A stretch of DNA of 64,000 bases, from positions 1-64,000 of the IMG/VR virus record IMGVR_UViG_3300033153_016035; one strand, given 5' to 3'. The first letter of the stretch is position 1. Every line of letters begins with the position of its first letter. The notes under the pieces are model-generated. The model was not told the DNA's origin. It worked only from the letters and a program-made list of their open reading frames with translations, and did not search any database. A program made the position numbers and the translations under genes. Source of the stretch: a virus. This document shows positions 23,645-52,758 of the stretch, piece after piece.

Positions 23645-24859
23645 CTACCAATATTGCGTGGGAGTCGCATCCGAGAACTCCACAATTAGCTTATCACTGA
23701 TTGAGCACAACGAGACTCTTTCTTCCATAATAACATTTAGGTCGTCATCACCGACCAAAGTATTTTTTTCTACTACAAGATCCAAGTCTTGAGCCCCGAG
23801 GCCAACATCTGCTGCGTAGAACCGGTACTCGGCACTACGTACGTCTCTTCCAAGTCGTGGCCCGCAGTGCAAACCATCGGTAGCAAAGTCGTTTATTTGT
23901 TCTGGCGCATCTAGCACTAGAATAATAAGACGGAGGAGAACATGGATTGGTCGCACTTCTTCCGCCCGAAGGAGGAGCCGGTCCAATACCGCCTGATCGA
24001 ACGTATGTGTCCCCGATTCCTCCTGAAGGAAAATAAAAAATTCCAAATCTGCTCGAGCGGCTCTATATGGAAATTCTCCGGTGACCTTATCGTATGAGGC
24101 TAAAACATCAGTACCGGCCGTATTCTCCAAGGTGAGATTGTATTCACCTTTAGGGTAGTTAAAGGAACCAACACTGCCATCTTGTGCCAATAAACCCCCA
24201 AAATTTTCCCCTAAGGAGTTATCATCATCACGAAACACTTTGCCGTCAACTTTGATGGTAATAGACCCGGGGCGAACCGGTTTTTCGACAAAAGAACCGA
24301 CGTAATACTTTGATCCAGATGGGCCCAGTAACTCATCTTCCACCGTGGCGACCTCGTACCGCTCCCGACTGTATTCCTCATTTGCCTCAAAAATTTGTTT
24401 TTTCCACAGTGGAATGGCTTTAACCTGCCAACCAATCATACGATAGAAAATGTCCCAGGAGAGTTCTCTTCCACGGATCTTATTAAGGTCAATTACACTT
24501 TTTATCACCTCTCGTTTTTTTGCCTCTTCTAGTCCTTCCTCAAGCGGATGACCCAGACTCCTGGCCATAATATTGAGGAAGTCTGCGGGACACTTATCCG
24601 GGTCTACCAAGTCCGGCAGCTTGTCTATAAACTCAACATCCTTACTTTCCTCTTTTTCGATGGCGAAGAAGACATTTTTCAAAACGGGGACCACCCCCAT
24701 TTCATCCCACAAGGCCCCCTCGTCCCATTTTAATAGTGGGTCATCCCAAAAGTGTATGTAAGACTCTACACCGTTCTCCTGATCCTCTTTTAGTACCCTC
24801 GGAAAGAGGTGTTTATATAATTCTATTCGCAGGTGGTTTGTTAATCTTTCATCGGTCAT
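23645..24859 (-). CDS. Baseplate protein, P2 gpI-like (tail protein I)
   Basis: 404 aa. Residues 84-160 carry the tail protein I signature: LVDPDKCPADFLNIMARSLGHPL, then 'KSVIDLNKIRGRELSWDIFYRMIGW'. These proteins link the baseplate wedge to tail fibres in P2-like tails. Residues 195-258 contain the PGS/TG beta module found in several virion proteins here (RPGSITIKVDG ... Y-x-x-G). Its ATG overlaps the gpJ-like stop (ATGA). The size is about twice P2 gpI (176 aa), mainly because of the extra module and a C-terminal part. Confidence 0.82.
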   Translation of the reverse strand: MTDERLTNHLRIELYKHLFPRVLKEDQENGVESYIHFWDDPLLKWDEGALWDEMGVVPVLKNVFFAIEKEESKDVEFIDKLPDLVDPDKCPADFLNIMARSLGHPLEEGLEEAKKREVIKSVIDLNKIRGRELSWDIFYRMIGWQVKAIPLWKKQIFEANEEYSRERYEVATVEDELLGPSGSKYYVGSFVEKPVRPGSITIKVDGKVFRDDDNSLGENFGGLLAQDGSVGSFNYPKGEYNLTLENTAGTDVLASYDKVTGEFPYRAARADLEFFIFLQEESGTHTFDQAVLDRLLLRAEEVRPIHVLLRLIILVLDAPEQINDFATDGLHCGPRLGRDVRSAEYRFYAADVGLGAQDLDLVVEKNTLVGDDDLNVIMEERVSLCSISDKLIVEFSDATPTQYW

Positions 24860-27786
24860 ATGTTCACCGGTATATTTATTTCAGTAAGGTTCACAGTGGC
24901 AAATGTCGGCATTATGTAATGCGCTACGGGAATATTTTTACAATGGGACTTGACGAAAGAATCATACGTTATGTTCATACGACGCCCGCTAATATCAGGT
25001 GCGTTCATATCTATTATAAAACGCCCACTAAGATAATCTAATCTTGTCGCCGGATAGACCCCGGCAACATCCCCGTAAATTCGACCCTCCCCATCCGAGA
25101 ATACTATCTTTTCATAAGGCCCGCCGGACCCTATAAAAGCAGAGAAAGGTGTGTAGAGAAAAAGAGCCGTGGGAGTTACATCTAACCGAAAATCCGGACC
25201 GGAAGCCACTTCCGGGGCCGCCTGGAAAGTCACCTTACCCCGTGAAACCAGAAGGGACGGGTCGTGATAAACAATAGTATTATCGGTGGAAACATTCAGA
25301 CTTTCTCCGTCTATAAGCCCTTTACCATTGTCGTACCCGTTCTTGAAAGTAACCGCTGGTGTCGATAAGTCCTCAAACCAAAATTTTGATCTACCGATAC
25401 CCTCCACCGTTTGGAGCGAAACAAGACTACCTCCCCCGCCGGAGGCTGTACGAACTTCAAATTCAAATTCCTTTTCTAGGCCGTCAGGGGCTGTAAGAAG
25501 GTAGCCAAAGTAATTAACCGGGGTTACGGGCGGTGGCATGGTATTCCAGGTAAGAGAAAAACGGCCCGTTTCGTAATCAATCTCCCCGGTAGCGTCTATA
25601 GTGAAACTCCCATATCCGTCGTCTAAGGCCAAAAGTTGTCCACCGGTTTGTGCTCCATAATTGTCATATCCACCTATAAACGCCACCCGGTTTTTTGCGT
25701 ATGGGAGAAACTCTGTAGGAAGGTACCCGGTTATGGTAAGACCGTCACTTAAACCAACCTGCCGCCGCTGTATCACCGGTGCGAATTCGACCAGGCCGTC
25801 CAGAGTATTTCCCTCATCCACTACTTTAGTTGTGGTATTTTCCATGAATGCGTATATCCGACACTCTGCCGTAACAAATCGTCCACCCTCCGGGGCTGCG
25901 CTAAAATTAGCTACAAAATGCCCCCGGGAATAGCCGATGGTGTTTGTCTTTGTATCATCTATATCACCAACCAGTAAGCCTCCGCCGTCGTCCGTTATAA
26001 CTTGATCCCCATCGGTTATCATGAATGATGTGGGTACCACTGACATGCCGTCGGGCACGGGAAAGTACTCGGAAAATTCTTGTTTACTGTCGTCCCCGAC
26101 CCCAAGGTCTAACTCACTAAACCGGGAACCTTGTACTCGAGTTAAAGTGGACGCGTCAATATGCTCATGATCTTGAATCTTTTCATTTATAAGTGAGAGT
26201 ATCAGGTCGGTGCCTGGGACCACATAAGTGGAATTAAAGTGCTGATATAACTCCTGAGTTACTTTTTCCAGTACGGAAGATACAGTGCGACCAGGCTTTA
26301 AATAGACCTCAGCGTCAATATCAAAGTAGAGTACATCTCCGTCGATTATTTCTAAATAGGTACAAATGGTACGACGGGAGTCAAGATATGACTTGACTCC
26401 TTGTTTTAAGGGGGAACTGGCTGTCGTTATTCTTCCTTGCGCGTCCCTACTCCAAAGCACAATCTGCACCATATTTAATTCTGGAACTCTTTGTTTAAGT
26501 CGCGCTATGGCAAATGACGGAGCGCCATAAATTGCGTCACGGTAGGACATAGCCAGCGTAGTGAAATGCTCTTGAGTTACAGCCTTGTTGTTAGTCTTAG
26601 CAAACCGTGGGGCCATTCTTTTTATACTGTCTAAAGATTCTTCGGGTTCCCCACCGGACCCGGCCTCATTATTATAAGCCCGGACATTTACGGTATTTCC
26701 AGAGGGTAAGTAGCCTTTTACTACAACGTCTATTCCGCCACGTCGCACATTGCCAACAACGCCCCCAGAGACCCTATAATATGCCGCGATTACGGCTCCA
26801 TCAGGTGGTATCTGGCCGTCAGCCCCATCACCAAATCTTATGACCGCCGTACCATCAGCGGCGTAGTTTGCCACAAACCGTCTTTGCGTTGCCGTTATTT
26901 GATACAAAACATCAATAACACTATCTTGTACCGGAGCGGCCCCTTCAACGGAAGCACCGAAGTGGACAAAGGTCTCTCCGTCTTGATTTTTTGTGGCACG
27001 AAATTCTTTTGGGGCGCCCGTGAATTCAACCACAAGTTTCCATAACTCCCCACTTACCATAACGACTATAACATCCTCGTCTGATGGCTCTATGAGGACA
27101 TTAAGGAGTGATAATTGGTACCTTTGGTTATCCAGTCCAGAGCTAAGATAGGTATCCCGACCGTGGCCCGACCCTTCTATGACTAAAAGAGACTCTGTCT
27201 CTTCCCACACCACGTCTAAAATCTCAATTCGTATGGAGTCCTGGAGAATGGTAGTATGAGAAAGCTGAAAATACTGTAAGGCGCTGCCATCTGAAACAAA
27301 CTCCTCCGATAATGTTTCCCCCTGCACAAAGGTTATTATCTCAGTAGACGCTGCATTTGGAAATACAGCACTTCCGGCAGGTATAACATAATCTGAAGCC
27401 GCCTCAAAAGTTAAATTGTCTTCAAGTTGTAACTTTTCCCCTTGTCGTACCGTTATGGGGGCCGTTTGTGGCGGACTTGGGTACAAGGTTATGGGGACAG
27501 AGGCCGAGGTGGTAAGGCGCCTTCTGTATCCAAGTTGTTTAGCTACAGCAATAATGGCCTCCGGCAGAGTGGCCGACTCCAGATAGCAATTGAGTGCTTG
27601 CATATCATAATAAAATGCCCGCTGGGCATGTGCCCAGGCCACCACGTCCACAACCGCCATACCCACTGATGTATCAACAAACTCCTTCCAATCTTTTTCA
27701 AACCGTATCTTTATCCAATTCAAAAGTGCGGTTCTTACGGATTGGAAGTCCCTTTCGACAAAAGAAATTACTGGATCAGAACTCAT
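24856..27786 (-). CDS. Baseplate wedge protein, gpJ/gp6-like
   Basis: 976 aa from the ATG at 27784-27786 (GAGG 5 nt upstream); an earlier in-frame TTG at 27801 overlaps the previous stop and is less likely. The N-terminus (FVDTSVGMAVVDVVAWAHAQ, then 'LPEAIIAVAKQLGYR') is the baseplate J signature, and 'RMAPRFAKTNNKAVTQEHFTTLA' matches the core region. Beyond residue 600 it holds at least three beta modules of the PGS/TG type (ITDGDQVITDDGGG..., GEIDYETGRF, VFSDGEGRIYGD). P2 gpJ is about 300 aa and T4 gp6 about 660, so this is an extended form. It forms the inner ring that changes shape when the tail contracts. Confidence 0.87.
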   Translation of the reverse strand: MSSDPVISFVERDFQSVRTALLNWIKIRFEKDWKEFVDTSVGMAVVDVVAWAHAQRAFYYDMQALNCYLESATLPEAIIAVAKQLGYRRRLTTSASVPITLYPSPPQTAPITVRQGEKLQLEDNLTFEAASDYVIPAGSAVFPNAASTEIITFVQGETLSEEFVSDGSALQYFQLSHTTILQDSIRIEILDVVWEETESLLVIEGSGHGRDTYLSSGLDNQRYQLSLLNVLIEPSDEDVIVVMVSGELWKLVVEFTGAPKEFRATKNQDGETFVHFGASVEGAAPVQDSVIDVLYQITATQRRFVANYAADGTAVIRFGDGADGQIPPDGAVIAAYYRVSGGVVGNVRRGGIDVVVKGYLPSGNTVNVRAYNNEAGSGGEPEESLDSIKRMAPRFAKTNNKAVTQEHFTTLAMSYRDAIYGAPSFAIARLKQRVPELNMVQIVLWSRDAQGRITTASSPLKQGVKSYLDSRRTICTYLEIIDGDVLYFDIDAEVYLKPGRTVSSVLEKVTQELYQHFNSTYVVPGTDLILSLINEKIQDHEHIDASTLTRVQGSRFSELDLGVGDDSKQEFSEYFPVPDGMSVVPTSFMITDGDQVITDDGGGLLVGDIDDTKTNTIGYSRGHFVANFSAAPEGGRFVTAECRIYAFMENTTTKVVDEGNTLDGLVEFAPVIQRRQVGLSDGLTITGYLPTEFLPYAKNRVAFIGGYDNYGAQTGGQLLALDDGYGSFTIDATGEIDYETGRFSLTWNTMPPPVTPVNYFGYLLTAPDGLEKEFEFEVRTASGGGGSLVSLQTVEGIGRSKFWFEDLSTPAVTFKNGYDNGKGLIDGESLNVSTDNTIVYHDPSLLVSRGKVTFQAAPEVASGPDFRLDVTPTALFLYTPFSAFIGSGGPYEKIVFSDGEGRIYGDVAGVYPATRLDYLSGRFIIDMNAPDISGRRMNITYDSFVKSHCKNIPVAHYIMPTFATVNLTEINIPVNI

Positions 27787-27787
27787 A

Positions 27788-28171
27788 TCAACCTCGTACA
27801 AAATCTATAGGTGCTTGCTCTTGCTTCTCATTTACATCATTACGGTCCTGATAACCGATCCAAATGGTGACCTTGTGTTCCCCGTCTTCTCTAGCTATAG
27901 ATACTGACGTTACTTTTATACGGGGCTCCTGGTCCTCTAAATCGTGGATGGCATAGTATAAAATAAGGTTCATTGTGGCATCGTCTAAAGGATCAAATAT
28001 TAACAAGGGGATATACGAACCCAATTCTGGGTTGTACACCACGGTGTTTTTAGGGGTAGACAAAATTATTTGAATGGAAGTTTTTATTGACTCTCTTCGG
28101 GTCTTATCTCCCAGAACCCCCTTCACTGAATTCTTAAATGGGAACGCCGGGCCGGCAAGCTGCATTGTCAT
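27788..28171 (-). CDS. Baseplate wedge protein, gp25/gpW-like
   Basis: 127 aa. The central segment (ESIKTSIQIILSTPKNTVVYNPELGSYIPLLIF) matches the gp25/W family, where the EPR-type core region aligns the sheath start on the baseplate. A second part (NLILYYAIHDLEDQEPRIKVTSV) is also characteristic. The length is normal for the family (about 100-135 aa). It lies between the spike gene and the gpJ-like gene, the standard order in contractile tails. Confidence 0.9.
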   Translation of the reverse strand: MTMQLAGPAFPFKNSVKGVLGDKTRRESIKTSIQIILSTPKNTVVYNPELGSYIPLLIFDPLDDATMNLILYYAIHDLEDQEPRIKVTSVSIAREDGEHKVTIWIGYQDRNDVNEKQEQAPIDFVRG

Positions 28172-29050
28172 TTAACTGCCCTTCGTATTTAAAGTAGTAT
28201 GAACATTGGGCACCGCCACTTGGTTTGGTATAGATGTATTTGTTGGCGCTCCGGGCCCCGGGAAATGGTCATGCGTATGGGTGTTGAACAAAAGTAAAAA
28301 CGCTTCGTTACAAAGTTTTTGGGCACTGGCTACTTCACCTAAAATTACACTTGTGGACAGGAGGTGTACCGCCGTCGTCGCTGCCACAGTCGCAAGACCG
28401 GTAATCACCATAGAAAGCCCCGCCATAGCAGAAATAGCCACAGCACCAAGACCTGTCAATATAAGGGCCGTTGCGGCTTTAAGTGTCATGGTGGCGGCAG
28501 TTTCCATTAAAATGTTACCGGTCACCATTTCTACACGCTCTCCCGCGACTACTTGATGGTCATTGCCCGCGATTGAGGCTCTATAATCCCCTAAAAAGTT
28601 TGACTCCGCGACCAGGTCTTTGGGGTTTAAAATAATAGATTGCCCCGCAGCATCTTCTAACTTTATGTAGGGGGCGTTCTCAAGGTCTGACAGTAACACC
28701 TTTTGCCCTCCGGGGGTTTTTATTACAAAAGTTTGAGGACGGCCTGTTGTGTAATCATGCTCATCAATTTTATCACCGGTACCAAACCACCCACCGAGCC
28801 ACACCGGATGGTCCGACTGCTCTTGGTAGAACATTATCCATACGCCGGAACCAATTTCCGGTAGCATAATAAACCCCGAGTTTTTATTTGCCACCGGAGC
28901 GCATGGAAAGGCCCAAGGGAGATCTCCGTCAGGTATCCTATGCTCCGAGTCCTTAGACCCAAAATGGGTCGTTCTAACCCGCAGGCGTCCCTCCCGTAGG
29001 GGGTCACGGTTATCCACTACAATGCCTGGCCACAACCCGCTAAAACTCAT
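28172..29050 (-). CDS. Baseplate spike protein, gpV-like
   Basis: 292 aa. Residues 1-95 form the OB-fold of gpV/gp5 (WPGIVVDNRDPLREGRLRVRT ... GSGVWIMFYQEQSDHPVWLGGWFG). The rest is repetitive and beta-rich, as expected for a triple beta-helix needle. Near residues 250-265 is a His cluster (NTHTHDHFPGPG) like the HxH metal site at the tip of P2-type spikes. The protein would pierce the outer membrane. There is no lysozyme domain, unlike T4 gp5. The ATG overlaps the hub gene stop. Confidence 0.9.
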   Translation of the reverse strand: MSFSGLWPGIVVDNRDPLREGRLRVRTTHFGSKDSEHRIPDGDLPWAFPCAPVANKNSGFIMLPEIGSGVWIMFYQEQSDHPVWLGGWFGTGDKIDEHDYTTGRPQTFVIKTPGGQKVLLSDLENAPYIKLEDAAGQSIILNPKDLVAESNFLGDYRASIAGNDHQVVAGERVEMVTGNILMETAATMTLKAATALILTGLGAVAISAMAGLSMVITGLATVAATTAVHLLSTSVILGEVASAQKLCNEAFLLLFNTHTHDHFPGPGAPTNTSIPNQVAVPNVHTTLNTKGS

Positions 29051-35530: not shown

Positions 35531-38518
35531 TTAACCTAAGGGCGCGACTTCGTCAAACGACGCTGTCGTCGGAGTGAAGATCATTTGGAATTCAATCTCC
35601 TCTGCAACTTCCACAAATTTGATAAACAATTTGGCGACAACCTTCTTACTGGAAATCACCGCCGGGGTGTTGGTTGTGGCATCGCAGACGATTCTGTAGT
35701 CTGTGATGCCTCTTTTAGCTTTAATGGGGTTGAGGGTGGAGTTGAGCATAGCCCGAATTTCACGCCACAGAATTTCGTCATTTTGTTCGTGGGGATAAGT
35801 TCTACCTCGAAGCAGAATCGTATTGGCTATAAGATTCGCTGTCCACCGCACATGCAGTCTATCGGTTGCCTTGGGATCTCTAGCCATAGTTCTTTGACCG
35901 TAAAGGAATATCCCCTGTCCTACAAAGTCCACAAAGGGGTTTAAAACCTCTATTCGAGTCCCAGACCTGCCGTACGTTGCAGCTCTTTCTCCTACATCGG
36001 GGGAATGGCGGACACTACTAAGATTACTGAGTTGCCCTCTTCGGATGCCGGCGATGGGGAACCACGGCTCGTACTCGTTGTCAATCTTCCCTATAAGTCC
36101 TAAAATGTCCCCTTCTCCTGGTTCCCACACCTCTTCTCCGGAGTATGCATCTTCATATAAAAGCCAGGAGAAGCTACAAAACGCCGAGGAAGAATCCACG
36201 GCAGACAAGAATGGGTAGGGGATATGGGGTTTTGGACGGGGTAGTGCTCCCGGACTTGGCGCGTTATACTCACCATTGACGAAGTCGCGGGCATCATATG
36301 TACTTTCAAAATCGGGGACCGACAGAATCCACACACACCGGCGCCCCTCACAAAGGGATATCCCGGCGTTTTGTACCTGTCGGTGGTACATTCCGGGGGC
36401 ACTAAGAAAGTGCAAAGGGATAAGTTCCGAATTGGAAAACAGTTGCATCCCGGAGTAGGTTGGTCCCACATGAGCACCAATGACATCTGCCGTAGTGAAA
36501 GCCCCAGCCATACCAATCTTTTGTCCATTGCCGGTGTCATAGGCTGTGTTTATCTCACCGTGGTACCCGGTTTCCTCCACGTGAACATATTCTGAACCAT
36601 TATCCGTATCATTTACAGTGGATAACAATTCGGCTACAGTACGGAGATTGTCAAAAGTCTCCACTGCCAACGATCCGACGCCACTGCCATCATTAAACAT
36701 AACCCTTACTCGGTACCATTGATCCCCAAGGTTTACAACGGGGGTATTTGGGCTTTTGTCCACCCACACGAAAATACCATCCGCGATGGGGTCTGATTCG
36801 TTACCGGTCGGCCCAGCGTAGATCGACGCAAAATGTAAAAGTATACTGTGGTACTCCGCTCTTACAGGAAAACCCATCGCCGGGGCCCCGATAAAAGTTA
36901 CAGAGTATTCCCCCGTCACATAATCTATAGTGCCAGAGCCTCCCGCACCAGAGATGCCGCCAATCCCATCGTCAACAAGGGGGGCGGTTGGGGATGTGGC
37001 ATAGTAAATCTCAACCGACCCGGGCTTGATCGGGTATTCCTGGAGAGTTCCCTCGAAGGTCACCTCTATAGCGTCACCATAATCTAAAACCGTAGCATGT
37101 TTAAAGAAGGCGTCAAAAGCACCACCATCTTCATTTTTCGGGATGTAATTTCCGGCTGGGATAAAAGTATGGATGAGGGTCCAAGCGCCGGTCTTATACT
37201 GGATAGTTCCTGCCACATTTGCTCCCGCTAGAATACCAGCCCCATTATCCACAACGTAAACCCGATATTTTATCATTATCGGTTCGCCGTTCTTGACGTC
37301 GGATGAAAATTGAAAATTCAGCACGCCGGTGGCATAGGTGATCGTTCCGGGAACAACAAGATTCCCGGTGAGTGCCCCCGACCCGTCATCAACGGCGGAC
37401 ATCTCATTGCCCAAGATATCCTTTGTGGTGATCTCTACGGAACCCTGAACCACGTCCGCTCCTATAGTGGGATTATAGGTATCGGTGGCACCATCCCCTA
37501 AATCTACCTGATCGTCTCTAGGATCAAATATCATAAGACTGCCGGGGGCTACGCCGTTTCTTGATACATTACCGCTATAGTTAGTCTCGTACTGTGAGGC
37601 AGTTTTAAGTACTTCGTAGGTGGCCCTTTGATAATTCACAGTTACTGCCGCAATGGGAACCACATTGAAGGCTACCGACCAGGCCCCAGTTTGGTAATTT
37701 ATAACACCAGAACCCCCACCGCCTCCGGTGAGTGTCCCGTCCTTATTGTCCGTAAAGGTTTCAACGCCGTCGGTTATTGAAATGGAGCCCGGTACTATGG
37801 GTCTATCCTCATTTCCACTGTAATTTGCGGTGGTGTTAACCGCCATCATGTAATTCCAGACACTCGCGGCCGACACTCCGCCGGTGGTCGACTCTGGGGA
37901 CTTAGATGATGCAAAAGAGCCATCATCACCAGAAGCCAAAGACATGGGCACTAAAACTTCCGTCTCAGAATCTAATGTCTCATTTGGAAAAACTAATCCG
38001 GCGTCCCGGTGAAGGGCTACCTGTATGTAAGTTGATTCCCTATTTACCTCTGTTTCCACTGTTCCGTTGGTAAGGTTATCAAACCTTTCCACAATTTGGT
38101 CCATAAAATAGACCATAATGTTGTATGAGCTGGCGGGATCGCCGTTATGTGTTATGTTAATTTTTACCGTACCGTTTGCCCACGTACCGGCCGATATGCC
38201 TTCGATACGAATGATGGGTATGTCGATGCCGCCAACACTCTTCCACTGCTCAACAAACGCTGTCTTTAGTAGGGTTCCCGCTACCCTTACAAATTTCAAC
38301 TGGTTGCCAAACCGCAGATAGCGGATAGCGCCCCTTACCGCATATTGGTAGTTTACAGGGCGACCGTGTGCGGAGACAAAATTACCTTCGTCTGTAAACT
38401 CCCCCAATGCGTTAATCGGACCTTTCGTTGCAGGGCCTATAACCCCTACGATTGCCCGGCTTCCTGCCGGTGTATACGCTGCAAGATCAAATTCTTTAAT
38501 ACTGATTCCTGGAGGCAT
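35531..38518 (-). CDS. Tail sheath protein with large inserted beta domains
   Basis: 995 aa. The N-terminus ('PGISIKEFDLAAYTPAGSRAIVGVIGPATKGPINALGEFTDEGNFVSAHG') and the C-terminus ('GRTYPHEQNDEILWREIRAMLNSTLNPIKAKRGITDYRIVCD', 'KLFIKFVEVAEEIEFQMIF') are classic sheath. Between them (about residues 230-560) four PGS/TG beta modules are inserted. Sheaths are usually 480-660 aa, so this is unusually large. The extra modules should face outwards from the contracting tail, giving a bulky surface. The gene starts where the tail-completion gene ends. Confidence 0.9.
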   Translation of the reverse strand: MPPGISIKEFDLAAYTPAGSRAIVGVIGPATKGPINALGEFTDEGNFVSAHGRPVNYQYAVRGAIRYLRFGNQLKFVRVAGTLLKTAFVEQWKSVGGIDIPIIRIEGISAGTWANGTVKINITHNGDPASSYNIMVYFMDQIVERFDNLTNGTVETEVNRESTYIQVALHRDAGLVFPNETLDSETEVLVPMSLASGDDGSFASSKSPESTTGGVSAASVWNYMMAVNTTANYSGNEDRPIVPGSISITDGVETFTDNKDGTLTGGGGGSGVINYQTGAWSVAFNVVPIAAVTVNYQRATYEVLKTASQYETNYSGNVSRNGVAPGSLMIFDPRDDQVDLGDGATDTYNPTIGADVVQGSVEITTKDILGNEMSAVDDGSGALTGNLVVPGTITYATGVLNFQFSSDVKNGEPIMIKYRVYVVDNGAGILAGANVAGTIQYKTGAWTLIHTFIPAGNYIPKNEDGGAFDAFFKHATVLDYGDAIEVTFEGTLQEYPIKPGSVEIYYATSPTAPLVDDGIGGISGAGGSGTIDYVTGEYSVTFIGAPAMGFPVRAEYHSILLHFASIYAGPTGNESDPIADGIFVWVDKSPNTPVVNLGDQWYRVRVMFNDGSGVGSLAVETFDNLRTVAELLSTVNDTDNGSEYVHVEETGYHGEINTAYDTGNGQKIGMAGAFTTADVIGAHVGPTYSGMQLFSNSELIPLHFLSAPGMYHRQVQNAGISLCEGRRCVWILSVPDFESTYDARDFVNGEYNAPSPGALPRPKPHIPYPFLSAVDSSSAFCSFSWLLYEDAYSGEEVWEPGEGDILGLIGKIDNEYEPWFPIAGIRRGQLSNLSSVRHSPDVGERAATYGRSGTRIEVLNPFVDFVGQGIFLYGQRTMARDPKATDRLHVRWTANLIANTILLRGRTYPHEQNDEILWREIRAMLNSTLNPIKAKRGITDYRIVCDATTNTPAVISSKKVVAKLFIKFVEVAEEIEFQMIFTPTTASFDEVAPLG

Positions 38519-39236: not shown

Positions 39237-40424
39237 TTAGTCGAACACTACCAGTAGATCGACGGCAATGTTTTCTTCGTTACTGGCGTGGTCCGTAGCC
39301 CATGAGGCATCTGAGATACCTTGACAACCGAGTTTCTTGCCTGCAACAAAAGTGGCATTTGCCGTTCCCGGGGCCACGGTGGAATATTCATCGTTGACAT
39401 CCCCCGCGTCCAACTTTTCCAGGAGTCCGGCTGCGGTAATGGCCACACCGTCTATCGTAGGCTTGAAATCAGCCTCCCCGCCACTACGGTCGTCCGAACT
39501 TACAACTGATATTCCTACTATGGATCCGGCCTTCGGCATTAAGTTGTATAGGGCAACATCGCCCTCAGCAAACATGTTTCTGGTTTGCGATTGACCCAAA
39601 CCATTACGGTATGTGAAAGAGTACTTGACCGGAACTTTCTGACGGTCGGTTTCCGTAATGACCTTGTTGGACGCAGAGATGGCGGTGGCGCCGTTGATCC
39701 CGGCATACTGATCCGAGGAAATGTGATACCCGGCGGCACTTCCCAGAACCCCAGAAAGGGAGTTGTGGTCTGACAAGGAGTCAAATTTAACCCAGGTGGT
39801 GGTGGTGGCGTTGTAGGTTCTCCGGATTCCGGCCGAGCCTTCATCCTCAAAAAGAGCTGCGTACCCGGCGTTGGGTGTTGTGGATGCGAAGGCCGCTCCA
39901 TCATACTCATAAATTTTATTGTCTTTTGTGTGATTTCCGCTATCACCTGAGTCGTCATCCCCTGTCGTGAAATGGCAAAAGCGGTCCCCACTTGAAACGG
40001 CGGCCCCGGCGTCCCAAGAAAGGGCCGACTCTTCGTAGAGTTTTGCCTCATTTGTGTTAAGGCATTTCTCTCCAGCGATGGGGGTACCAGAAGGGGCCCC
40101 GGCGTCGGTTTTGACATAGTCAATCCCGTGGTCAATACTGTCCTGCCAGTCCAGGGCATCCTTTTTATCTTGATAGTAGCTTTCGGTGATGTAAGTATCG
40201 GAAGCCGAGGGGGTATACCCTCCAGGACCGGCAAGTGCTGCATTTTCATCTGTTGTAGGAACTCGGGCATCCTGGTCGGTGACGAATTTGTTACCGGATC
40301 CGGGGGTGCCTGAGGAACCTACAAGAGCATCTTTTTCTGTGGTGGAGGGGAGGAACGCCTCATCAAACTTTATTGAACTTCCGAATCCACCGCTTTGGAC
40401 GGTTACGAATGTTTTATCTGCCAT
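39237..40424 (-). CDS. Fibre/decoration protein with C-terminal 90-residue domain
   Basis: 395 aa. Residues 1-60 hold two copies of the 30-residue (ENDAL ... NRFVT ... DPR) repeat that is so frequent in the 816-aa fibre gene. The middle is Gly/Asp/Ala-rich. The last 95 residues ('AGSIVGISVVSS ... FKPTIDGVA ... LEKLD ... ENIAVDLLVVF') form a domain found twice in the next gene. It is a virion surface protein; whether head fibre or tail fibre cannot be told. Confidence 0.7.
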   Translation of the reverse strand: MADKTFVTVQSGGFGSSIKFDEAFLPSTTEKDALVGSSGTPGSGNKFVTDQDARVPTTDENAALAGPGGYTPSASDTYITESYYQDKKDALDWQDSIDHGIDYVKTDAGAPSGTPIAGEKCLNTNEAKLYEESALSWDAGAAVSSGDRFCHFTTGDDDSGDSGNHTKDNKIYEYDGAAFASTTPNAGYAALFEDEGSAGIRRTYNATTTTWVKFDSLSDHNSLSGVLGSAAGYHISSDQYAGINGATAISASNKVITETDRQKVPVKYSFTYRNGLGQSQTRNMFAEGDVALYNLMPKAGSIVGISVVSSDDRSGGEADFKPTIDGVAITAAGLLEKLDAGDVNDEYSTVAPGTANATFVAGKKLGCQGISDASWATDHASNEENIAVDLLVVFD

Positions 40425-41678: not shown

Positions 41679-44129
41679 CTACAATTCCATCTTAAATCCG
41701 GCTACACAAATTCCTATCTTCCCGTCGCTCCCATCGTCCATATACTCAAATTCCCTGTCGCCGTCCAGTACCATCTGAATCTGCCCCGAAGCAACATGTC
41801 CGCTATGGCGAACATGGTAGGTCGCAGAACTACCATTCCGTCTGAAGATGAAATCGGGACTCTTATCGTTTGTCTCATGTATCTGGAATAACACGTAAGT
41901 AACACCTACTGGAATAAATGGGGAAGCGTCTACCAGTGTCCACGATCCCGGATCAGTATTCCACACCAAGTCATTGTTGATGACATCATCGTAGAAATAT
42001 TCTTTATCCGGTCCTTTCCCGTTGACGTAGAACGGTTGAAAGTCTCCAGTGGGGCCATTGAGTACATACCCAATCAATTTCTTTGCCGTGAATCCCAAAG
42101 GGAGTGTCGGCGCTGTCGGTGAGGCGGAGAGAAGACCTTTGACAATTCCCGACAATGGGTTGTAAATGACAAAGATGTAGTAGATCGTGTCATTTGCTTC
42201 CCCCGCCACATCCAGGCCATTTTCCCCAATAGTGGTTATGGCGACGAGGATGTTAGAAGTATTCTTGATATTATAAGTATCGGTATCGTTTCGCGCCTCC
42301 CCCGGTTTTATTGTAATCTGTGTTACGCTTGTATACTCCGTTAGGTACCCATACATATGGGATACTGGATGTGCCGCAGATATAGCCTCATTGATCCCGT
42401 GGAGATGGGAAGTCAGTTGGTCGATCTGGCCAACTTCCGGTGTCCCGAAATTCCTGGTGTAGTTCGTGGGAACATACGTGATATTCAACTTGTCCCCATC
42501 CATTTCGTCGGCACCACCGTCTATGTGACGGGAGGCATGGTCAGCACTCGGGAGCAGTCGCGGGTCGCTGTCGGTGACATATGTATTACTGGCACTTGGG
42601 GCACCGTCTGACCCGACGAGGGCATCATTCTCATTCTGTGTCGGGAGGCGGGTGTCCTGTGTGGTGACATAGGGGTTCCCCGCTGTTGGCGTTCCATAGG
42701 AGCCCTGTAGGGCATCGTTCTCCGCCTGTAGTGGAACTCGAGGATCATTATCAGTGACGTAGGGGTTTGCCGCACCCGGTGTACCACTGGTCCCCTGTAG
42801 GGCGTCGTTCTCGTCTAAAGCGGGGAGTCGGGGATCAGAATTGGTAACGAACCGATTGGTCCCGGAAGATGTCCCATTTGTCCCCAACAGGGCATTGTTC
42901 TCGTCTGGTGTAGGGAGACGGGGATCAGAGTCGGTAACGAAGCGGTTAGAACCTGACGGAGTTCCATTCGTCCCCTGAAGGGCATCATTCTCTCCTGTGG
43001 TGGGGAGTCGGGGATCGGAGTCGGTAACAAACCGGTTGGCGTTACTCGGGGCTCCGCTCGCCCCTTGTGCCGCATCATTCTCATCCTGAGTGAGAAGACG
43101 AGTGTCCGCCGCCGTGACAAACCGGTTAGAACCGGAGGGTGCCCCAGAGGTTCCCTGGAGGGCATCATTCTCTGCCTGTGTTGGAACTCTTGGGTCCGAA
43201 TTGGTCACAAACCGATTTGTATTCGAGGGTACGCCATCGGTGCCCTGTAAGGCATCATTCTCCGCCTGAATCGGGATGCGGGGATCTGAGTCTGTTACAA
43301 ATCTATTGGTACCTGACGGGGCTCCGTCAGTCCCTTGAAGGGCATCGTTTTCGGTTTGCAGCGGAATACGCGGGTCTGAGTCTGTTACGAATCTATTAGT
43401 GCCTGACGGTACTCCGTCAGTTCCTTGAAGAGCATCATTCTCGGTTTGCAGTGGGATACGCGGATCCTGGTCGGTTACAAACCGATTAGTGTCCGATGGG
43501 GTTCCATACGTTCCCTGAAGCGCATCTGCGATACTACTAGAAGGAAGTAGTGGGTCGCTTTGTGTTATAAATAGATTAGTACCGCTCGGAGTTCCGTCTG
43601 AACCGGCGAGGGCATCATTCTCGTCAGAGGATGGTAGTACAGGGTCAGAACTCGTTACGAACCTATTTGTTCCGGAGGGGGTGCCGTCGGTTCCGGCGGC
43701 CGCATCATATTTATCTTCACTAAGATGGAAAGGCGGTATGTCTCCGGCTATAGCACCTAGGGCATCATGTTTGGATACCCCCTTTGTCATTTGTATCCAT
43801 CGACCAGATCCGGCATCCGGGGTAACTACATGTGGAACACTTTCTGCCTGTACCGACTGAAGATCAAAGCGGAAAAGGCCATTGTTGGCGGCCACATCAG
43901 ACTCTACATAACACAGCATCCTGTCTTCACGCGTGGTATCCGGTATTGCCTTTAACTCCACAATAGTGCCAACGGCCGGATGGTATGAACCGAAAGTCGT
44001 GGAAAAGAGCGTAATAGCGGCCGACTTTGTCAAAACCGGATTGAAACGACTAGGATCTTCTGCGTAGTCTATACCATCTTTTTGCCGTGCATTGAGAATT
44101 ATATCTTGAAGATTTGTTGTGACGGTCAT
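41679..44129 (-). CDS. Long fibre protein with 13 copies of a 30-residue repeat
   Basis: 816 aa. Residues 1-139 form an N-terminal base. Residues 140-529 are 13 tandem copies of a 30-residue unit with core ENDALQGT-x-G-x-PS-x-x-NRFVT-x-x-DPR-x-P. Residues 530-816 are a beta-rich head with 'ASRHIDGGADEMDGDKLNITYVP', a phrase common in phage fibres, and 'FYVNGKGPDKEYFYDD' near the end. The regular repeat should give a thin shaft. It overlaps the next gene by ATGA. Presumably a head or tail fibre that meets the host surface. Confidence 0.8.
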   Translation of the reverse strand: MTVTTNLQDIILNARQKDGIDYAEDPSRFNPVLTKSAAITLFSTTFGSYHPAVGTIVELKAIPDTTREDRMLCYVESDVAANNGLFRFDLQSVQAESVPHVVTPDAGSGRWIQMTKGVSKHDALGAIAGDIPPFHLSEDKYDAAAGTDGTPSGTNRFVTSSDPVLPSSDENDALAGSDGTPSGTNLFITQSDPLLPSSSIADALQGTYGTPSDTNRFVTDQDPRIPLQTENDALQGTDGVPSGTNRFVTDSDPRIPLQTENDALQGTDGAPSGTNRFVTDSDPRIPIQAENDALQGTDGVPSNTNRFVTNSDPRVPTQAENDALQGTSGAPSGSNRFVTAADTRLLTQDENDAAQGASGAPSNANRFVTDSDPRLPTTGENDALQGTNGTPSGSNRFVTDSDPRLPTPDENNALLGTNGTSSGTNRFVTNSDPRLPALDENDALQGTSGTPGAANPYVTDNDPRVPLQAENDALQGSYGTPTAGNPYVTTQDTRLPTQNENDALVGSDGAPSASNTYVTDSDPRLLPSADHASRHIDGGADEMDGDKLNITYVPTNYTRNFGTPEVGQIDQLTSHLHGINEAISAAHPVSHMYGYLTEYTSVTQITIKPGEARNDTDTYNIKNTSNILVAITTIGENGLDVAGEANDTIYYIFVIYNPLSGIVKGLLSASPTAPTLPLGFTAKKLIGYVLNGPTGDFQPFYVNGKGPDKEYFYDDVINNDLVWNTDPGSWTLVDASPFIPVGVTYVLFQIHETNDKSPDFIFRRNGSSATYHVRHSGHVASGQIQMVLDGDREFEYMDDGSDGKIGICVAGFKMEL
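42543..43712 (-). repeat. 13 tandem 90-bp repeats in the fibre gene
   Basis: Each unit encodes a 30-residue motif beginning ENDAL and ending DPR-x-P. Neighbouring copies are close to each other at the DNA level (the units around 43300-43480 are nearly identical in long stretches), so recombination could change the copy number. Confidence 0.9.
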
Positions 44130-47282: not shown

Positions 47283-47304
47283 TCTCAACACCTTTCTTAA
47301 TTGA

Positions 47305-47326
47305 GGATGGGCGCGTTGGCCCATCC
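47305..47326 (-). terminator. Hairpin after the major capsid gene
   Basis: GGATGGGC and GCCCATCC form an 8-bp stem with a 6-nt loop, 25-46 nt after the capsid stop. No T-tract follows on the minus strand, so it looks more like an mRNA 3'-end or processing/stability element than a classic intrinsic terminator. It could lower expression of the genes after the capsid. Confidence 0.45.
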
Positions 47327-47350
47327 CCCTGTTTAATGTGACGATTTGTC

Positions 47351-48790
47351 TTACAGGTTGATGACTTCAATTCGTCCCAGCATCTCGGGGTTTATCACAT
47401 GGATAACGTACTCAGTGAGGAGTGCGGTATCTTTGTGGAATGCCTTCACATGGACTGGGGCTTTATACAGCGGTATGTACATACCTATGATTGCCGCCGT
47501 GTTGATTATCTCGTTGCCCCGGTAAGACAAAACAGCGGAACCAGGCTTGAAAGTCGGATCACAAATACAGGTCAAACCGTGGTTGGTAAGGGTTCCCGCC
47601 ATTTTCGGACCGGCAAGCGCATCGGTACCACCGGGAGCCCCTTCGCCCTGGAAGCCCTTGGTATACTGAAACAGAAACCAAATGTCTGGCGCAAAGATAC
47701 ACACATTGGGGCGTACTCTTTGCGTGTTTTGCCAAATTTCATTTTGGAGTCTGGTTATAAGGATACCAAAGGAATCAATGTGCTCCTGGTAGGAAATGCC
47801 TGCGGGGTTGGTGTTGTCGAATATAATCGACCCACCCCGTGCCACCCGGTACAGATGTCGTACAACATGTTTGAACTTCTCTGCCATGATGATTTTGGCA
47901 CCAGCATCCATGATGGTTGGTTCTGCGTCGACACCCCAATCGTTGAGCAGGTCAAATACCGATTGCTGACTCCATTGCGTCGCGATAGCTCTCGGGCGTG
48001 CCTCGACGGTGACGCTCCGTAAGGAGATACCATACTTCGGTAGTTCGGTGGCTGCTTCAATATTATAGGTATATGTGGTGGTTACCGGTCCGGACGTGGC
48101 GCCGGAGAAGACGCAGGAAAATTCCCCCGTCAGGTAGTTCACTGTGTTACTGAAACCGGGAGCCGGGGCGCCTACATCACCGACCAGATTGCCGTTACGA
48201 TCATCACGGATCACCAAGGTTCCGTCGGTTATCAGAACGGAATCTGGCACCGCTGGAAGGTACTCAAGTGTACTGGTGTACTGCGTGGATCCCGCCGCTC
48301 CGATGGGCTCCTCCTTAACTTCTTCTGAGGAAAAGTCGTCGGAACCATAAAAACCCCTAAGGGCGTCGAACATTCGTTGGCCAGAGGGAAGCTTCCCTTT
48401 ACTCCTTTCTGTCTGTATATCCAGATAGTGGATACGTCCAGATCTGTTTTGGAGCGGTTGCTCGGAGATAACCTTGTCGGTCAAATCATCTGCGTTGGAC
48501 GCCGATATTAAAGCCAGACCCGTCTTAATCCACTTGGGCAGATCAGCACGGGAAGTTTCTTGCAGATTCATGGTTTTACGAACAAAGTTTTCACAGAGAA
48601 TGGCAGTCTTAGTCTTTACGAACTCATCGGGATCTTCCCCCAAGGGCTCCAGCACATTTATAGGCTTGTCTATGCCTAAATCAGTCAACGTGAACCTCTC
48701 GTAGCTTTCTACAAGTTTTCTGTTGGCCGATACAAATTGATCGACGGTAAAGGGGGAATCCGCATTCCGTCTATTGGTTGATTTTAACAT
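47351..48790 (-). CDS. Major capsid protein (gp23-like)
   Basis: 479 aa from the ATG at 48788-48790, with GAGGAG at 6 nt; an open frame to 48940 lies upstream without a ribosome site. The length and motifs ('FVRKTMNLQETSRADLPKWIKTGLALISA', 'YGISLRSVTVEARPRAIATQWSQQSVFDLLNDWGVDAE', 'NVCIFAPDIWFLF') fit the gp23 group with the HK97 fold. Residues 178-243 are an insertion of the PGS/TG beta module, so each capsomer may carry an extra surface domain. L26-V-E28|S29 matches the [LI]-x-E|(A/G/S) site of the T4-type protease encoded just upstream. Confidence 0.9.
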   Translation of the reverse strand: MLKSTNRRNADSPFTVDQFVSANRKLVESYERFTLTDLGIDKPINVLEPLGEDPDEFVKTKTAILCENFVRKTMNLQETSRADLPKWIKTGLALISASNADDLTDKVISEQPLQNRSGRIHYLDIQTERSKGKLPSGQRMFDALRGFYGSDDFSSEEVKEEPIGAAGSTQYTSTLEYLPAVPDSVLITDGTLVIRDDRNGNLVGDVGAPAPGFSNTVNYLTGEFSCVFSGATSGPVTTTYTYNIEAATELPKYGISLRSVTVEARPRAIATQWSQQSVFDLLNDWGVDAEPTIMDAGAKIIMAEKFKHVVRHLYRVARGGSIIFDNTNPAGISYQEHIDSFGILITRLQNEIWQNTQRVRPNVCIFAPDIWFLFQYTKGFQGEGAPGGTDALAGPKMAGTLTNHGLTCICDPTFKPGSAVLSYRGNEIINTAAIIGMYIPLYKAPVHVKAFHKDTALLTEYVIHVINPEMLGRIEVINL

Positions 48791-48818
48791 ATCTACTCCT
48801 CGTTTTTTCCAACGGACT

Positions 48819-50819
48819 TCACTTTTTGCGCTTACGATGCTTCGCAAGCCTACCAAATATATTGTCAGAGGGCGCGGGGCCGTCGGAGACGGTAACCGCT
48901 TGGGGTTGTGGTGGCAATTCCGGGGGCATGAAGGCTTCATTTAAATCCAAAGGAACTTGCAGTCCCACTTCATCGAAACTAGAAATAGCACCACTGGAGA
49001 TGGGTTCGTGAACTTTTCCCTTGTTACCCTTTCGGTTACTAGGAGAAGATTCGTTTAAAGCTTTTAAAAAAGCTCCTGCGGTTTCTTGTAGACTCGGAAG
49101 AGTCTTACATTTACTAAGAAATCCCTTGAACTTAACCAATTCCTTGCACTCTTTTAGAAGCCTTCCAAGTTCCACCTTGGTAAGTTCCTCTTCAAACATG
49201 CCGACCATTTCCTGGTTAATCATACGGAGATTTCCATTATCTGTGATTAGACTGTGAGCAGTCTTTTTGAGTGTCTGGATCTCCTCATTCAAATCATGAA
49301 TAACTTGATCCCTGGCCCGTATACTCCCACTGTACCCTTCCGGCACAGAAATATCAGGCTCTACTTCTTCTGCTTCTTCGGGGAAGTCTTCTGGTTCTTC
49401 GGGGATATCCCCCATTTCAACAGGCATTCCCTGGCCGCTTAACATCAATGAGTTTATCTGCGCCTTGGCCCCTTCCGGGTCATTGGCGACGGCCACCTTA
49501 ATGCACAACTTGTCACCCACCCAGAAGGTGTCTATAGACTTGACATTATCCTCCAGGGCACTCTGGATAAGATTTAAAAGGTTTTCTGATTCCTCACCCA
49601 CACGGAAAATATTTATTTTCTTACGGGTCGCGTCCGATAGACTTGTCAAAGGAAAGGAACACTCTACCGTATGGCTTATATCACCATCATTATCTGAAAC
49701 AGTCTCCGGCGGGGCTTCTGGTAATACTTCTGGAGCGGGCACCGAGTCTTCGGGGGCCGGTACTGTTTCCGCACGCTCTGCGGCATCTTTTGCTTTCTCT
49801 GCGGCGGCCTGCGCAATATTTGCTGCTGCTGCCGCCCCCTCTGGGGTACTAGCCTGCTTTGCCACCTTTAAGGCGGCTTCGGCCTCTCCGGCGGCTATAG
49901 TGGCTTGTGCTGCGGCGGCCTCAGTCTCGGCGGTATTGCCGTCAGTGCCAACTACGGCCGCAGCTTTTACGGCGGCTCCTTGCGCCTTCTCAGCCGCTGC
50001 CCGCGCAGCGTTAGCGGCGGCTTCAGCAGTTTCTACAAGATTCACCTTCCAATTTTTATAGATTTTACGTTTCATTTTGATTGCCTCATCAAGTAATCGT
50101 AGCCCCATTTTGATACTGTCTTGGGGGGTCAGGAGGTGGTTTCCCATGAAGACTAAATCATTATACCGACCCTCCCAAGTATCGTTCCACCCCTCGACGG
50201 TGCATTCTTCTTGTAGACCCCGTATCTGCACTTGCAGTTTTGCCGCTTGCTCTTGTTCTTTTAAGTCTTCCGGAGATTTTGCCCGGAGTTTTTCTTGGAG
50301 ACTTTCGTGTAGAAACGCTCCTGGCGTTGAGGGTTCAGCCACCAGGTCAAATGTTTCTGGCACGAAATCCTCTTGGACTTCATCTATTCCCTCAGCATTG
50401 CGGCGAACACTACCACGGGCGCGGGAGGAGATCCCTACGGATAAGCCATCCCGTAAAAGCGCTTTTGCCGTTTGTCCGGTGAGTGTACTGAGTGTTTCTA
50501 TTGAGCCATGAACTTCTCCGTTCTCCCGTAGAGAAATATTGGTTATGACAATAGCCGCTTCTTTTAAATGACTTTTTCCGTCTGCCGGGTGCTCCAGGTG
50601 GCCAAACACTCTCCAGGACTTTATGGCCTGCATAAAGTCGCTATTTGGGCTACAGTGTTGCTCCCAAACGCGTCTAGGATAAATTCTTCCATTGCGATTT
50701 TTTACGTCGCAGTGCTGAAATTTCCCTGAAACCCGTATTCTTCCGTCTGGAAGTTCCTCGATGGACTCTCTCAGCGTCCCGGACAAGGGAATGGAATCTG
50801 TTAACAGTTGTCTTGACAT
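48819..50819 (-). CDS. Fused prohead protease and scaffold protein
   Basis: 666 aa from the ATG at 50817-50819 with GGAG 7 nt upstream. Residues 1-190 match gp21-type proteases: NRNGRIYPRRVWE, GHLEHPADG with the catalytic His, and GLSVGISSRARGSV with the Ser. Residues about 190-370 are an Ala/Glu-rich coiled coil (for example 'AAAEKAQGAAVKAAA'). Residues 370-666 are acidic with a second helical region, then a basic tail ending in AKHRKRKK. The last two parts look like a gp22-type core. In T4 these are separate genes. The capsid gene follows by 28 nt. Confidence 0.85.
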   Translation of the reverse strand: MSRQLLTDSIPLSGTLRESIEELPDGRIRVSGKFQHCDVKNRNGRIYPRRVWEQHCSPNSDFMQAIKSWRVFGHLEHPADGKSHLKEAAIVITNISLRENGEVHGSIETLSTLTGQTAKALLRDGLSVGISSRARGSVRRNAEGIDEVQEDFVPETFDLVAEPSTPGAFLHESLQEKLRAKSPEDLKEQEQAAKLQVQIRGLQEECTVEGWNDTWEGRYNDLVFMGNHLLTPQDSIKMGLRLLDEAIKMKRKIYKNWKVNLVETAEAAANAARAAAEKAQGAAVKAAAVVGTDGNTAETEAAAAQATIAAGEAEAALKVAKQASTPEGAAAAANIAQAAAEKAKDAAERAETVPAPEDSVPAPEVLPEAPPETVSDNDGDISHTVECSFPLTSLSDATRKKINIFRVGEESENLLNLIQSALEDNVKSIDTFWVGDKLCIKVAVANDPEGAKAQINSLMLSGQGMPVEMGDIPEEPEDFPEEAEEVEPDISVPEGYSGSIRARDQVIHDLNEEIQTLKKTAHSLITDNGNLRMINQEMVGMFEEELTKVELGRLLKECKELVKFKGFLSKCKTLPSLQETAGAFLKALNESSPSNRKGNKGKVHEPISSGAISSFDEVGLQVPLDLNEAFMPPELPPQPQAVTVSDGPAPSDNIFGRLAKHRKRKK

Positions 50820-51090
50820 TTTTATTCTCCACCACGGCGCACTCTCCCGATTGGGGTTTGTACGCAATTACCCCATGCATCCGTATCATATCAAAAAGAT
50901 TCAGTCCGTCTTTTTGCTTTATAACGTATTCAGTGTCTGCGGCACTATCAAAAGATAGGTTGTAGGTATTGCTATCGCTAAAGTCAGCATTAGGTATTTG
51001 CAAAATCATTTTACTCCCCCTACGAGGATTATAATGAAAACAAACCACCTGGTAGTCTTCCAGCTTTGGAAGTTTTAAAGTCCTACTCAT
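50674..51090 (-). CDS. Hypothetical head-region protein overlapping the protease
   Basis: 138 aa, starting with ATGA overlap to the upstream gene. The first 60 residues are mixed ('DYQVVCFHYNPRRGSKMILQIPNAD'), and the last 48 are very basic and read through the beginning of the protease gene in another frame. The conserved protease motif (NRNGRIYP) and this gene's own good start mean both frames seem real. Its place just before the protease matches gp67/gp68-type core components in T4, but no match is seen. Confidence 0.65.
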   Translation of the reverse strand: MSRTLKLPKLEDYQVVCFHYNPRRGSKMILQIPNADFSDSNTYNLSFDSAADTEYVIKQKDGLNLFDMIRMHGVIAYKPQSGECAVVENKNVKTTVNRFHSLVRDAERVHRGTSRRKNTGFREISALRRKKSQWKNLS

Positions 51091-51923
51091 CTATCCATTT
51101 TCCAATCCACATCATACTCAGAGTGTTCTACCAAGTCATCCGATGAATGCTCATAACCTGCTGTCAGGCCCCCCGCCGCCGGTATAAAGTCAGGCGAGAA
51201 ACTAAGTTTAATCTCCCCGGTAACGTAGTTTACAGAGTCGTCTACACTGCCCAATCGAAGATTAGGGGGAAGGGCAATCAATTTCCCTTTACCATTATCA
51301 CGAATAACATCAGCACCGCCTATGCCTGGTACTGTTATTTTAAGAGAACCCGGACATATTGGGGCATTAGCAAGAGTCTTCAAGAAATATACTTTCACCC
51401 CGTCACCGGTTCCTATGCCCTCGGTCGCTACAGTTGTATCATATGTCCTTCGTAAACGAAACAGCGGCTTATCTAAAGTCTTAACAGGGGTGCCGGTGGC
51501 AGAAATTATAATAGCTGTAATGGTGTCGGTCATTGGCGAGAATGATAGTTTATGCGCGGTTATGTGTGCTGTGTCGCCAGATACGGCTAGTCCAGTACTA
51601 AGCCACTGTACCCCGGTATAAACTTTTATTGTTCGTCGCGACACGGCATGGTAGTAGGTCATATGCCCGCCGGCGCCCTCTGTTTCAAATAGGACAAATT
51701 CGCGCCCATAATGGACAAAAGGCTGCGGTGGTTCAGCTCGTTCTAGTAACAAGGCCGTGTTATCTTTGTTAGTTTTATTTCGTCTGACCCGAAGGACTAA
51801 CGGAGTGTATCCGGCAACTGGGTGTAGGGGTATACCTTTATCGTACAAGTCGAAAAAGCCGACGTAAGGTTTGTCTGCGGGCAACCTGTCCTGCTTGTGA
51901 AGCGTATCTAGTAGTCCTCGCAT
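51087..51923 (-). CDS. Virion protein with PGS/TG beta module
   Basis: 278 aa. The first 180 residues are beta-rich ('MTYYHAVSRRTIKVYTGVQWLSTGLAV'). Residues 188-258 contain the module shared with the capsid, sheath and baseplate proteins (CPGSLKI ... DNGKGKL ... VNYVTGEIKLSF). It ends with a short charged tail. It lies among the structural genes before the protease, so it is likely a head-associated or decoration protein. The ATG has AAGGAG upstream. Confidence 0.7.
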   Translation of the reverse strand: MRGLLDTLHKQDRLPADKPYVGFFDLYDKGIPLHPVAGYTPLVLRVRRNKTNKDNTALLLERAEPPQPFVHYGREFVLFETEGAGGHMTYYHAVSRRTIKVYTGVQWLSTGLAVSGDTAHITAHKLSFSPMTDTITAIIISATGTPVKTLDKPLFRLRRTYDTTVATEGIGTGDGVKVYFLKTLANAPICPGSLKITVPGIGGADVIRDNGKGKLIALPPNLRLGSVDDSVNYVTGEIKLSFSPDFIPAAGGLTAGYEHSSDDLVEHSEYDVDWKMDR

Positions 51924-51946
51924 TCAGTTTCTCCTTTTTTGATCCT

Positions 51947-51996
51947 TGTCCTACTTAGTTAAAGGACAGGTATTTCAATGACCCCTATGGGGTCAT
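51947..51996 (-). terminator. Two hairpins between structural genes
   Basis: An 8-bp stem, ATGACCCC/GGGGTCAT with a 3-nt loop (51978-51996), follows the stop of the upstream gene by 7 nt. A second stem, TGTCCT/AGGACA, lies at 51947-51968. Neither is followed by a strong T-tract on the minus strand. They may stabilise the upstream mRNA or reduce read-through. Confidence 0.45.
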
Positions 51997-52002
51997 CGAC
52001 TC

Positions 52003-52758
52003 CTACGCATTGTGATACGGATAATCGTCTATTTCACCTTTTATGATGGGGAGAGAAACTTCCTCATCGTTACCGTGGTAGTGGATACACAGACCAAGAA
52101 CCGTCTCAGGGTCGCTGGAGGTCTTCTTTTTAGCCACGAAGCCTATTTCCTGCTCATCAAAAGACATACCCTTCAGGATATTTTCCGTTCTGGTACTGTC
52201 ACCCTTGACTACGTAGTGCTGATAGCCTCCGGCCTTAACCAGATCGAAGGTGACGTTGGTGGTAAACTGCGTCCAATTAGTGTGACGATACCCCGTTGTC
52301 ACGGCCAAGGTGACTGCAACCTGGAATGAGAAATCCACAATTGCATCATCGTAGTTGATCGTGCCGACCAGGATAGGGTACGCGGGCCCGGCGGGACCAT
52401 TTGTCTGCCACAATTTGCCGTCGTTGTTGGAGTCTTCAATGCGCTGAGGCACACCGACATTTGTATCCACAATAACTACCGAACCTGGTTTTATTCGACG
52501 CTGCGCCAACTTCCCACGGAAGCGGTCGGTGGCCGCTACACGAAGGGCATTGATGTTTTCGGCCACTATCGGATATTCCCGCCCGCGTTTGAGTAGGGTA
52601 AAGGTAACGTCTCCTCTCCCTTTATTGTTCAGCTCAAAACTATTTAGCCGCATTACTCCTGCTCTGTTAAACCGTGCGAGTACAATATCAGAAGTGGAAT
52701 TGACTCCTAGAGTGGTAAGTTCTGCGGTCCTGTCTTGGTATTCAGCCATCCCAATCAT
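52003..52758 (-). CDS. Virion protein with PGS/TG beta module
   Basis: 251 aa. The N-terminal part has 'FELNNKGRGDVTFTLLKRGREYPI', and residues 88-158 hold a copy of the shared module (KPGSVVIVD ... EDSNNDGKL ... GTINYDD). The C-terminal part has 'QEIGFVAKKKTSSDPETVLGLCIHYHG'. An ATG two codons in is equally possible as the start. Its own hairpin follows the stop, which suggests it is made in quantity. Likely a head decoration or structural protein. Confidence 0.7.
   Translation of the reverse strand: MIGMAEYQDRTAELTTLGVNSTSDIVLARFNRAGVMRLNSFELNNKGRGDVTFTLLKRGREYPIVAENINALRVAATDRFRGKLAQRRIKPGSVVIVDTNVGVPQRIEDSNNDGKLWQTNGPAGPAYPILVGTINYDDAIVDFSFQVAVTLAVTTGYRHTNWTQFTTNVTFDLVKAGGYQHYVVKGDSTRTENILKGMSFDEQEIGFVAKKKTSSDPETVLGLCIHYHGNDEEVSLPIIKGEIDDYPYHNA

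Follow-up and report, generated by a model that had tools for sequence, protein, structure and literature searches.

A domain of the P1 capsid I-domain family recurs in capsid, sheath and baseplate proteins of a contractile phage

In a single phage gene cluster, six virion proteins carry copies of one small module of about 85–90 residues, predicted to form a seven-strand beta domain. The sequence comparisons support one homologous domain common to head, sheath and baseplate proteins and, by sequence, fold and capsid position, this domain belongs to the family of the insertion domain (I-domain) of the P1 major capsid protein. The window, which is the whole 64-kb stretch of DNA analysed, comes from a virus record of 119,917 bases. 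The region with the modules lies on the minus strand and is a cluster of contractile-phage structural genes that encodes a Gp23-type capsid protein, an S77 prohead protease, a sheath protein and gpJ- and gpI-like baseplate proteins.

The module in six virion proteins

Ten candidate copies were aligned, and the resulting profile was run over all six frames. Because this profile was trained on its own targets, we added two fair tests: leave-one-protein-out profiles, made from window copies only, and a hidden Markov model built from 98 copies from other phages and zero window sequences (the window-free HMM). The window-free HMM recovered nine full copies in six window proteins (E 3e-22 to 2e-8), and additionally half of a split tenth copy in the sheath (E 3e-7). 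Outside the sheath, the carriers and copies are as follows, with orthologues from G001, a related phage of 116 kb.

23645..24859, minus strand: gpI-like baseplate protein (PF09684 Tail_P2_I, E 1.8e-6)
24086..24319, minus strand: gpI module copy, downstream of the Tail_P2_I match (window-free HMM E 3e-9; G001 orthologue E 2e-19)
24856..27801, minus strand: gpJ/gp6-like baseplate wedge protein (PHROG 219 baseplate wedge, E 5.2e-44; PF04865, E 8.9e-6)
25849..26109, minus strand: gpJ module J1 (window-free HMM E 3e-13)
25498..25764, minus strand: gpJ module J2 (window-free HMM E 2e-8)
24955..25149, minus strand: possible third gpJ module
47351..48940, minus strand: T4-type major capsid protein, Gp23 (Pfam PF07068, E 1.8e-22; PHROG 138 major head protein, E 1.7e-18)
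48047..48319, minus strand: capsid module copy at the I-domain position (window-free HMM E 3e-19; capsid alignment; structural model)
51087..51923, minus strand: virion-cluster protein, zero Pfam or NCBIfam matches (G001 orthologue beside the capsid genes of that phage, 29% identity)
51153..51437, minus strand: module in this protein (window-free HMM E 1e-13)
52003..52758, minus strand: virion-cluster protein, no Pfam match above cut-off and no NCBIfam match (G001 orthologue, 30% identity)
52279..52563, minus strand: module in this protein (window-free HMM E 2e-9; G001 orthologue E 2e-20)

The initial annotation had placed the module in these six proteins, and the window-free HMM finds it in all of them within a few codons of those positions. 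In the rest of the 120-kb record the next best frame reached only E 3 with this HMM, and the best value on five shuffled sets was E 7.6; the window-copy profile likewise found zero copies in the six frames of the remaining 56 kb. In the leave-one-protein-out test, profiles made from window copies only retrieved the capsid copy (8.7e-13), the copy in the 51 kb protein (1.6e-5), three sheath copies (6.7e-9, 4.1e-4 and 9.2e-4) and two gpJ copies (9.6e-6 and 0.026), with marginal values for gpI (0.017) and the 52 kb protein (0.035); shuffled controls failed with these profiles. About three gpJ copies had been proposed, all of them within the C-terminal 400 residues of the protein. Two of these (J1 and J2) are firm; the third appears only with a profile trained on it and was unrecovered by the window-free profile, so we count two.

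Single module sequences gave zero tblastn matches in the phage collection even at E 0.01, because single copies are too diverged, and a profile is therefore needed. Pairwise identity among copies inside the window phage is indeed low, at about 29%. This divergence, together with the marginal values of two copies in profiles made from window copies alone, is what unrelated beta segments alike merely in composition could produce. We give that reading almost no credence, however, since a profile devoid of window sequences retrieves nine full copies, none of them worse than E 2e-8, while nothing else comes close and shuffled controls fail. The proposal of one homologous module common to head, sheath and baseplate is thus upheld by sequence and, for the capsid copy together with its library relatives, by predicted fold.

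Other features of the neighbourhood were recorded alongside. The S77 prohead protease (48819-50867) overlaps the listed start of the capsid frame and has a long, Ala-rich, coiled-coil-like C-terminal extension, possibly a fused scaffold. Beside the head genes lie two very large frames (53105-58765, 1886 aa; 59886-63443, 1185 aa) that match nothing in PHROG and nothing convincingly in NCBIfam. Two putative tail-fibre-like proteins (41679-44129 and 39237-40424) have a common repeat of about 30 residues, END-A-L-x-G-x-x-G-x-PSG-x-N-x-FVT-x-x-D-x-R-x-P, part of which Pfam reads as an antifreeze beta-roll repeat; 90-base tandem arrays lie at 42790-43039 and 43252-43526. A putative uracil-DNA glycosylase (18837-19721) was recognized by eye.

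Sheath copies and the fold of the module

The sheath protein matches T4-like gp18 chains (E 4e-29 to 8e-26) and contains about 340 inserted residues that are largely modules.

35531..38518, minus strand: tail sheath protein (PHROG 23 tail sheath, E 1.1e-60; PF17482, E 5.8e-10)
37613..37837, minus strand: sheath module S1 (window-free HMM E 3e-22)
37517..37612, minus strand: N-terminal half of the split module S2' (alone E 5, window-free HMM)
37262..37516, minus strand: complete module S2, nested inside S2' (window-free HMM E 2e-16)
37151..37258, minus strand: C-terminal half of S2' (profile positions 42-78, the half copy found by the window-free HMM)
36848..37096, minus strand: sheath module S3 (window-free HMM E 2e-21)

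The half-modules of the insert follow the order N1 C1 N2' N2 C2 C2' N3 C3. Four sheath copies had been counted initially, and this number is correct because there are four N-halves and four C-halves, with one whole module (S2) lying within the split one (S2'). In support of the split copy, joining the N-half of S2' to its C-half adds 18.7 bits, and the N-halves of intact copies add 19.1 and 23.7. The related sheaths of G001 and G005 also contain the C-half of S2' and show the same split, with about 110 other residues between the halves; their N-halves add 11.2 and 12.7 bits, second only to S1 but scarcely more than a background segment adds (10.7 and 11.1).

The site of the capsid copy is the I-domain site, as seen in aligned capsid proteins of the window phage, G001, LIS04, Rhizobium phage and P1, with T4 gp24 included. 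Of all the copies, this one alone is inserted at the I-domain site of an HK97-fold capsid protein, the rest being carried by other proteins. A profile of 108 copies matches residues 207-299 of P1 gp23 (PDB 9UKM, 9ukm_A) at E 2.4e-7, and a window-only profile matches the P1 gp23 I-domain at E 3.4e-5. Consistent with these matches, an AlphaFold2 model of the capsid copy built from 107 alignment rows (pLDDT 92.7; seven strands of at least 3 residues) returned P1 gp23 as the first-ranked Foldseek match among solved structures (probability 1.00, TM 0.63 over the query), followed by structures with a probability of at most 0.72. The P1 capsid I-domain is therefore the sole strong solved-structure match, both by profile and by fold. 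Among predicted viral structures, a tail sheath (E 1.7e-5, TM 0.70) was among the best fold matches, and several major capsid proteins and gp6-like baseplate wedge proteins also matched.

The initial annotation had proposed testing whether all copies adopt one Ig-like or jelly-roll fold, and the module is not shown to have either. In Pfam the window carriers matched no Ig family at E values up to 1, Ig domains were absent from the top-ranked fold matches of the capsid copy, and antibody Fab chains appeared only at a probability of 0.15-0.18. That all copies adopt a single fold is in part supported: the capsid copy is modelled well, but it alone is, and for the other copies a common fold relies on homology and partial model support. 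The full sheath model is weak (mean pLDDT 51.7), with only the module stretches reaching about 70-84, in a similar strand order. Outside the search pattern described below, the most strongly conserved residues are D43 (97%) and G47 (99%), which fall where a strand end and a turn are predicted, a placement that, in the model, would be as expected from fold constraints rather than ligand constraints.

Carriers and relatives in other phages

We scanned viral contigs with a DNA pattern for GT-I-[N/D]-Y-x-T-G-x5-F, which identified at least 120 stretches, and iterated profiles then gave at least 135 domains in at least 106 reading frames among the pattern loci listed and the window. Carrier counts are biased by the pattern, as are the residues that it fixes (model positions 62-69 and 75). 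Among the matches listed, masked carriers comprised a 35-member family of about 300 residues, a 19-member family of about 750 residues, 12 proteins of about 640 residues, 12 capsid proteins, 9 sheaths and single cases. The PHROG and Pfam names of the carriers listed include major head protein, tail sheath, baseplate wedge, SU10-type adaptor, tail tube, Tail_P2_I and GpJ-type proteins. The proposed search of phage proteomes thus yielded relatives in many other phage structural proteins: across many uncultured phages, the module lies in capsid, sheath, baseplate and connector-like proteins as well as in further proteins of the virion. The same pattern also gave 80 loci from contigs of bacteria and archaea, of which 71 matched the profile at E up to 0.01, and many belong to the same carrier families. 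Weak module matches in very long rumen-bacterial proteins (E ~1e-3) were left out of the counts.

Several carriers have features of their own. Two phage virion proteins of about 815 residues (L073:167-2608 and L044:4594-7044) match E1_FCCH of ubiquitin-activating enzymes (E 1e-18 to 1e-20) near their C-termini and outside the module; the E1_FCCH match in the carriers of about 750 residues likewise proved to lie outside the module. A 153 kb phage encodes three proteins of about 330-345 residues inside a 5-kb stretch (L056:4793-9677), and two of the three contain two modules apiece.

Among cultured phages, one copy at the major-capsid-protein place was found in P1, Listeria LIS04, Xanthomonas phiXF1, Pseudomonas QdP_Psa3, Escherichia EP_H11, Rhizobium RHph_TM30 and Maribacter Colly_1. 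The module profile gave no detection in T4, phiKZ, N4, SU10, S-CAM7 or Microcystis Mel-JY01. The window capsid protein, used as a query in the viral contigs, found zero relatives.

Closer to the window phage, G001 has the module in the same six proteins, with identities of 50% for the capsid protein, 41% for the sheath, 37% for gpJ, 38% for gpI and 29-30% for the two others. The more distant phages G002 and G006 carry it in the capsid, sheath and gpJ-like proteins, and G013 matches G006. G004 has copies in capsid and gpJ and a sheath devoid of them; because G004 and LIS04 both combine a capsid copy with a sheath lacking any, sheath copies are dispensable in principle. Across G000, G001 and G005, position-matched copies are 44% identical, compared with 29% within one phage; 0 of 5000 shuffles in a position permutation test reached the observed value, and copies within one phage are no more alike than at random. 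The spread of the module is therefore old, with copies in place before these phages diverged. Repeated spread, as suggested initially, is retained as an old process only, in which copies keep their position across phages.

The same data bear on whether the module is a largely neutral, tolerated insertion with no specific task, one that spreads by recombination because it folds alone and has its ends close together. Its very wide and patchy occurrence over unrelated carrier proteins and the nesting of one copy inside another would fit such an origin. However, a relative whose sheath shares just about 41% identity retains the module in the same six proteins, and conservation of the copies follows position, which speaks for selection at each site; we consider neutrality quite improbable.

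Candidate roles and known systems

We favour, with some reservation, the view that the module is a self-folding structural brace between neighbouring subunits of capsid, sheath and baseplate, by analogy with P1. Inserted into exposed loops or at protein ends, it would fold by itself, pack against neighbouring subunits and so stiffen all three structures without a separate cement protein. In P1, cryo-EM shows the I-domain of gp23 protruding outward and contacting the P-domain of the adjacent capsomere (PMC12810830). Of the three roles suggested in the initial annotation (carbohydrate binding, stability and host-surface interaction), stability is best supported, through analogy with this contact; the analysis yielded no support for the other two. 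Bracing by modules would extend the P1 case to other proteins. In sheath proteins in general, added domains lie away from the tube, with stability or adhesion suggested as their role (PMC9230969), and the sheath and baseplate modules here are probably exposed at the surface. Different copies may not all do the same thing.

A glycan-binding adhesin role was reportedly proposed earlier for the Ig-like domains of tailed phages. The modules could similarly act as weak adhesins that bind host or habitat glycans, with many copies on display across head, sheath and baseplate. Their predicted outward position, judged from the P1 I-domain and the added sheath domains (PMC9230969), fits this idea, as do their recurrence across many virion proteins, as for Ig-like domains, and the presence of tailspikes and a lectin among weak fold matches. 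Those tailspike and lectin matches, however, do not exceed a fold probability of 0.57, and chance alone produces matches between beta-rich folds; Pfam gave no carbohydrate-binding family match on window copies; and the conserved positions, located in strands or turns, are mainly Gly, Asp, Thr and a small number of aromatics, with no obvious conserved aromatic platform in the sequences. Known CBM families were absent from the window carriers, and CBM_5_12 occurred only in one unrelated carrier (L054), outside the module. We judge the adhesin role unlikely.

Among known systems, the P1 gp23 I-domain shares with the module a profile match, the best fold match and the capsid position. In P1 just a single copy is detectable, that of the capsid protein, whereas the window phage also has copies in sheath, gpJ, gpI and two further proteins. 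The P1 authors describe the I-domains of the P1, T4 gp23/gp24, N4 and phiKZ capsid proteins as structurally similar (PMC12810830). Those of T4 gp23/gp24, N4 and phiKZ occupy the same place in the capsid fold as the module (T4 gp24 aligned), but, unlike the window phage, T4, N4 and phiKZ have no module match anywhere by profile, and T4 was absent among the 50 fold matches listed for the capsid copy.

That one domain class recurs in many virion proteins is already known from Ig-like domains. Fraser et al. are said to have described these in 2006 (J Mol Biol 359:496) on several kinds of virion protein of tailed phages, displayed on the outside. The recurrence is alike, but the conserved motif of Ig-like domains differs from that of the module, whose best fold matches are not Ig. 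Additional domains of phage sheaths are likewise beta domains added to a conserved core, away from the tube, but are mostly described as Ig-like, whereas those of the window sheath are of the P1 I-domain family (PMC9230969). PHROG 6128 (unknown function, 1200 positions) contains arrays of the module and matches 45 of 98 carrier proteins, but it is a whole-protein family rather than a domain definition. Pfam and NCBIfam have no model for the domain. In the open-access literature we found no description of this domain across capsid, sheath and baseplate, or in sheath and capsid together.

More speculatively, the module may represent a phage-wide domain family, in no searched library, that moves among head, connector, sheath and baseplate proteins, nests in itself and forms a common virion skin whose copies share one partner, such as a glycan, an ion or a decoration protein. 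We hold this to be improbable; if true, one surface skin would cover the whole virion and engage that partner. The P1 capsid insertion domain is now tied to inserts in the sheath, the baseplate and further proteins of the virion, which makes a good deal of unannotated sequence in large structural proteins of phages recognizable as a single domain. The module provides a second, non-Ig case of a domain common across the virion, and makes whether such domains stabilize particles or bind surfaces a testable question.
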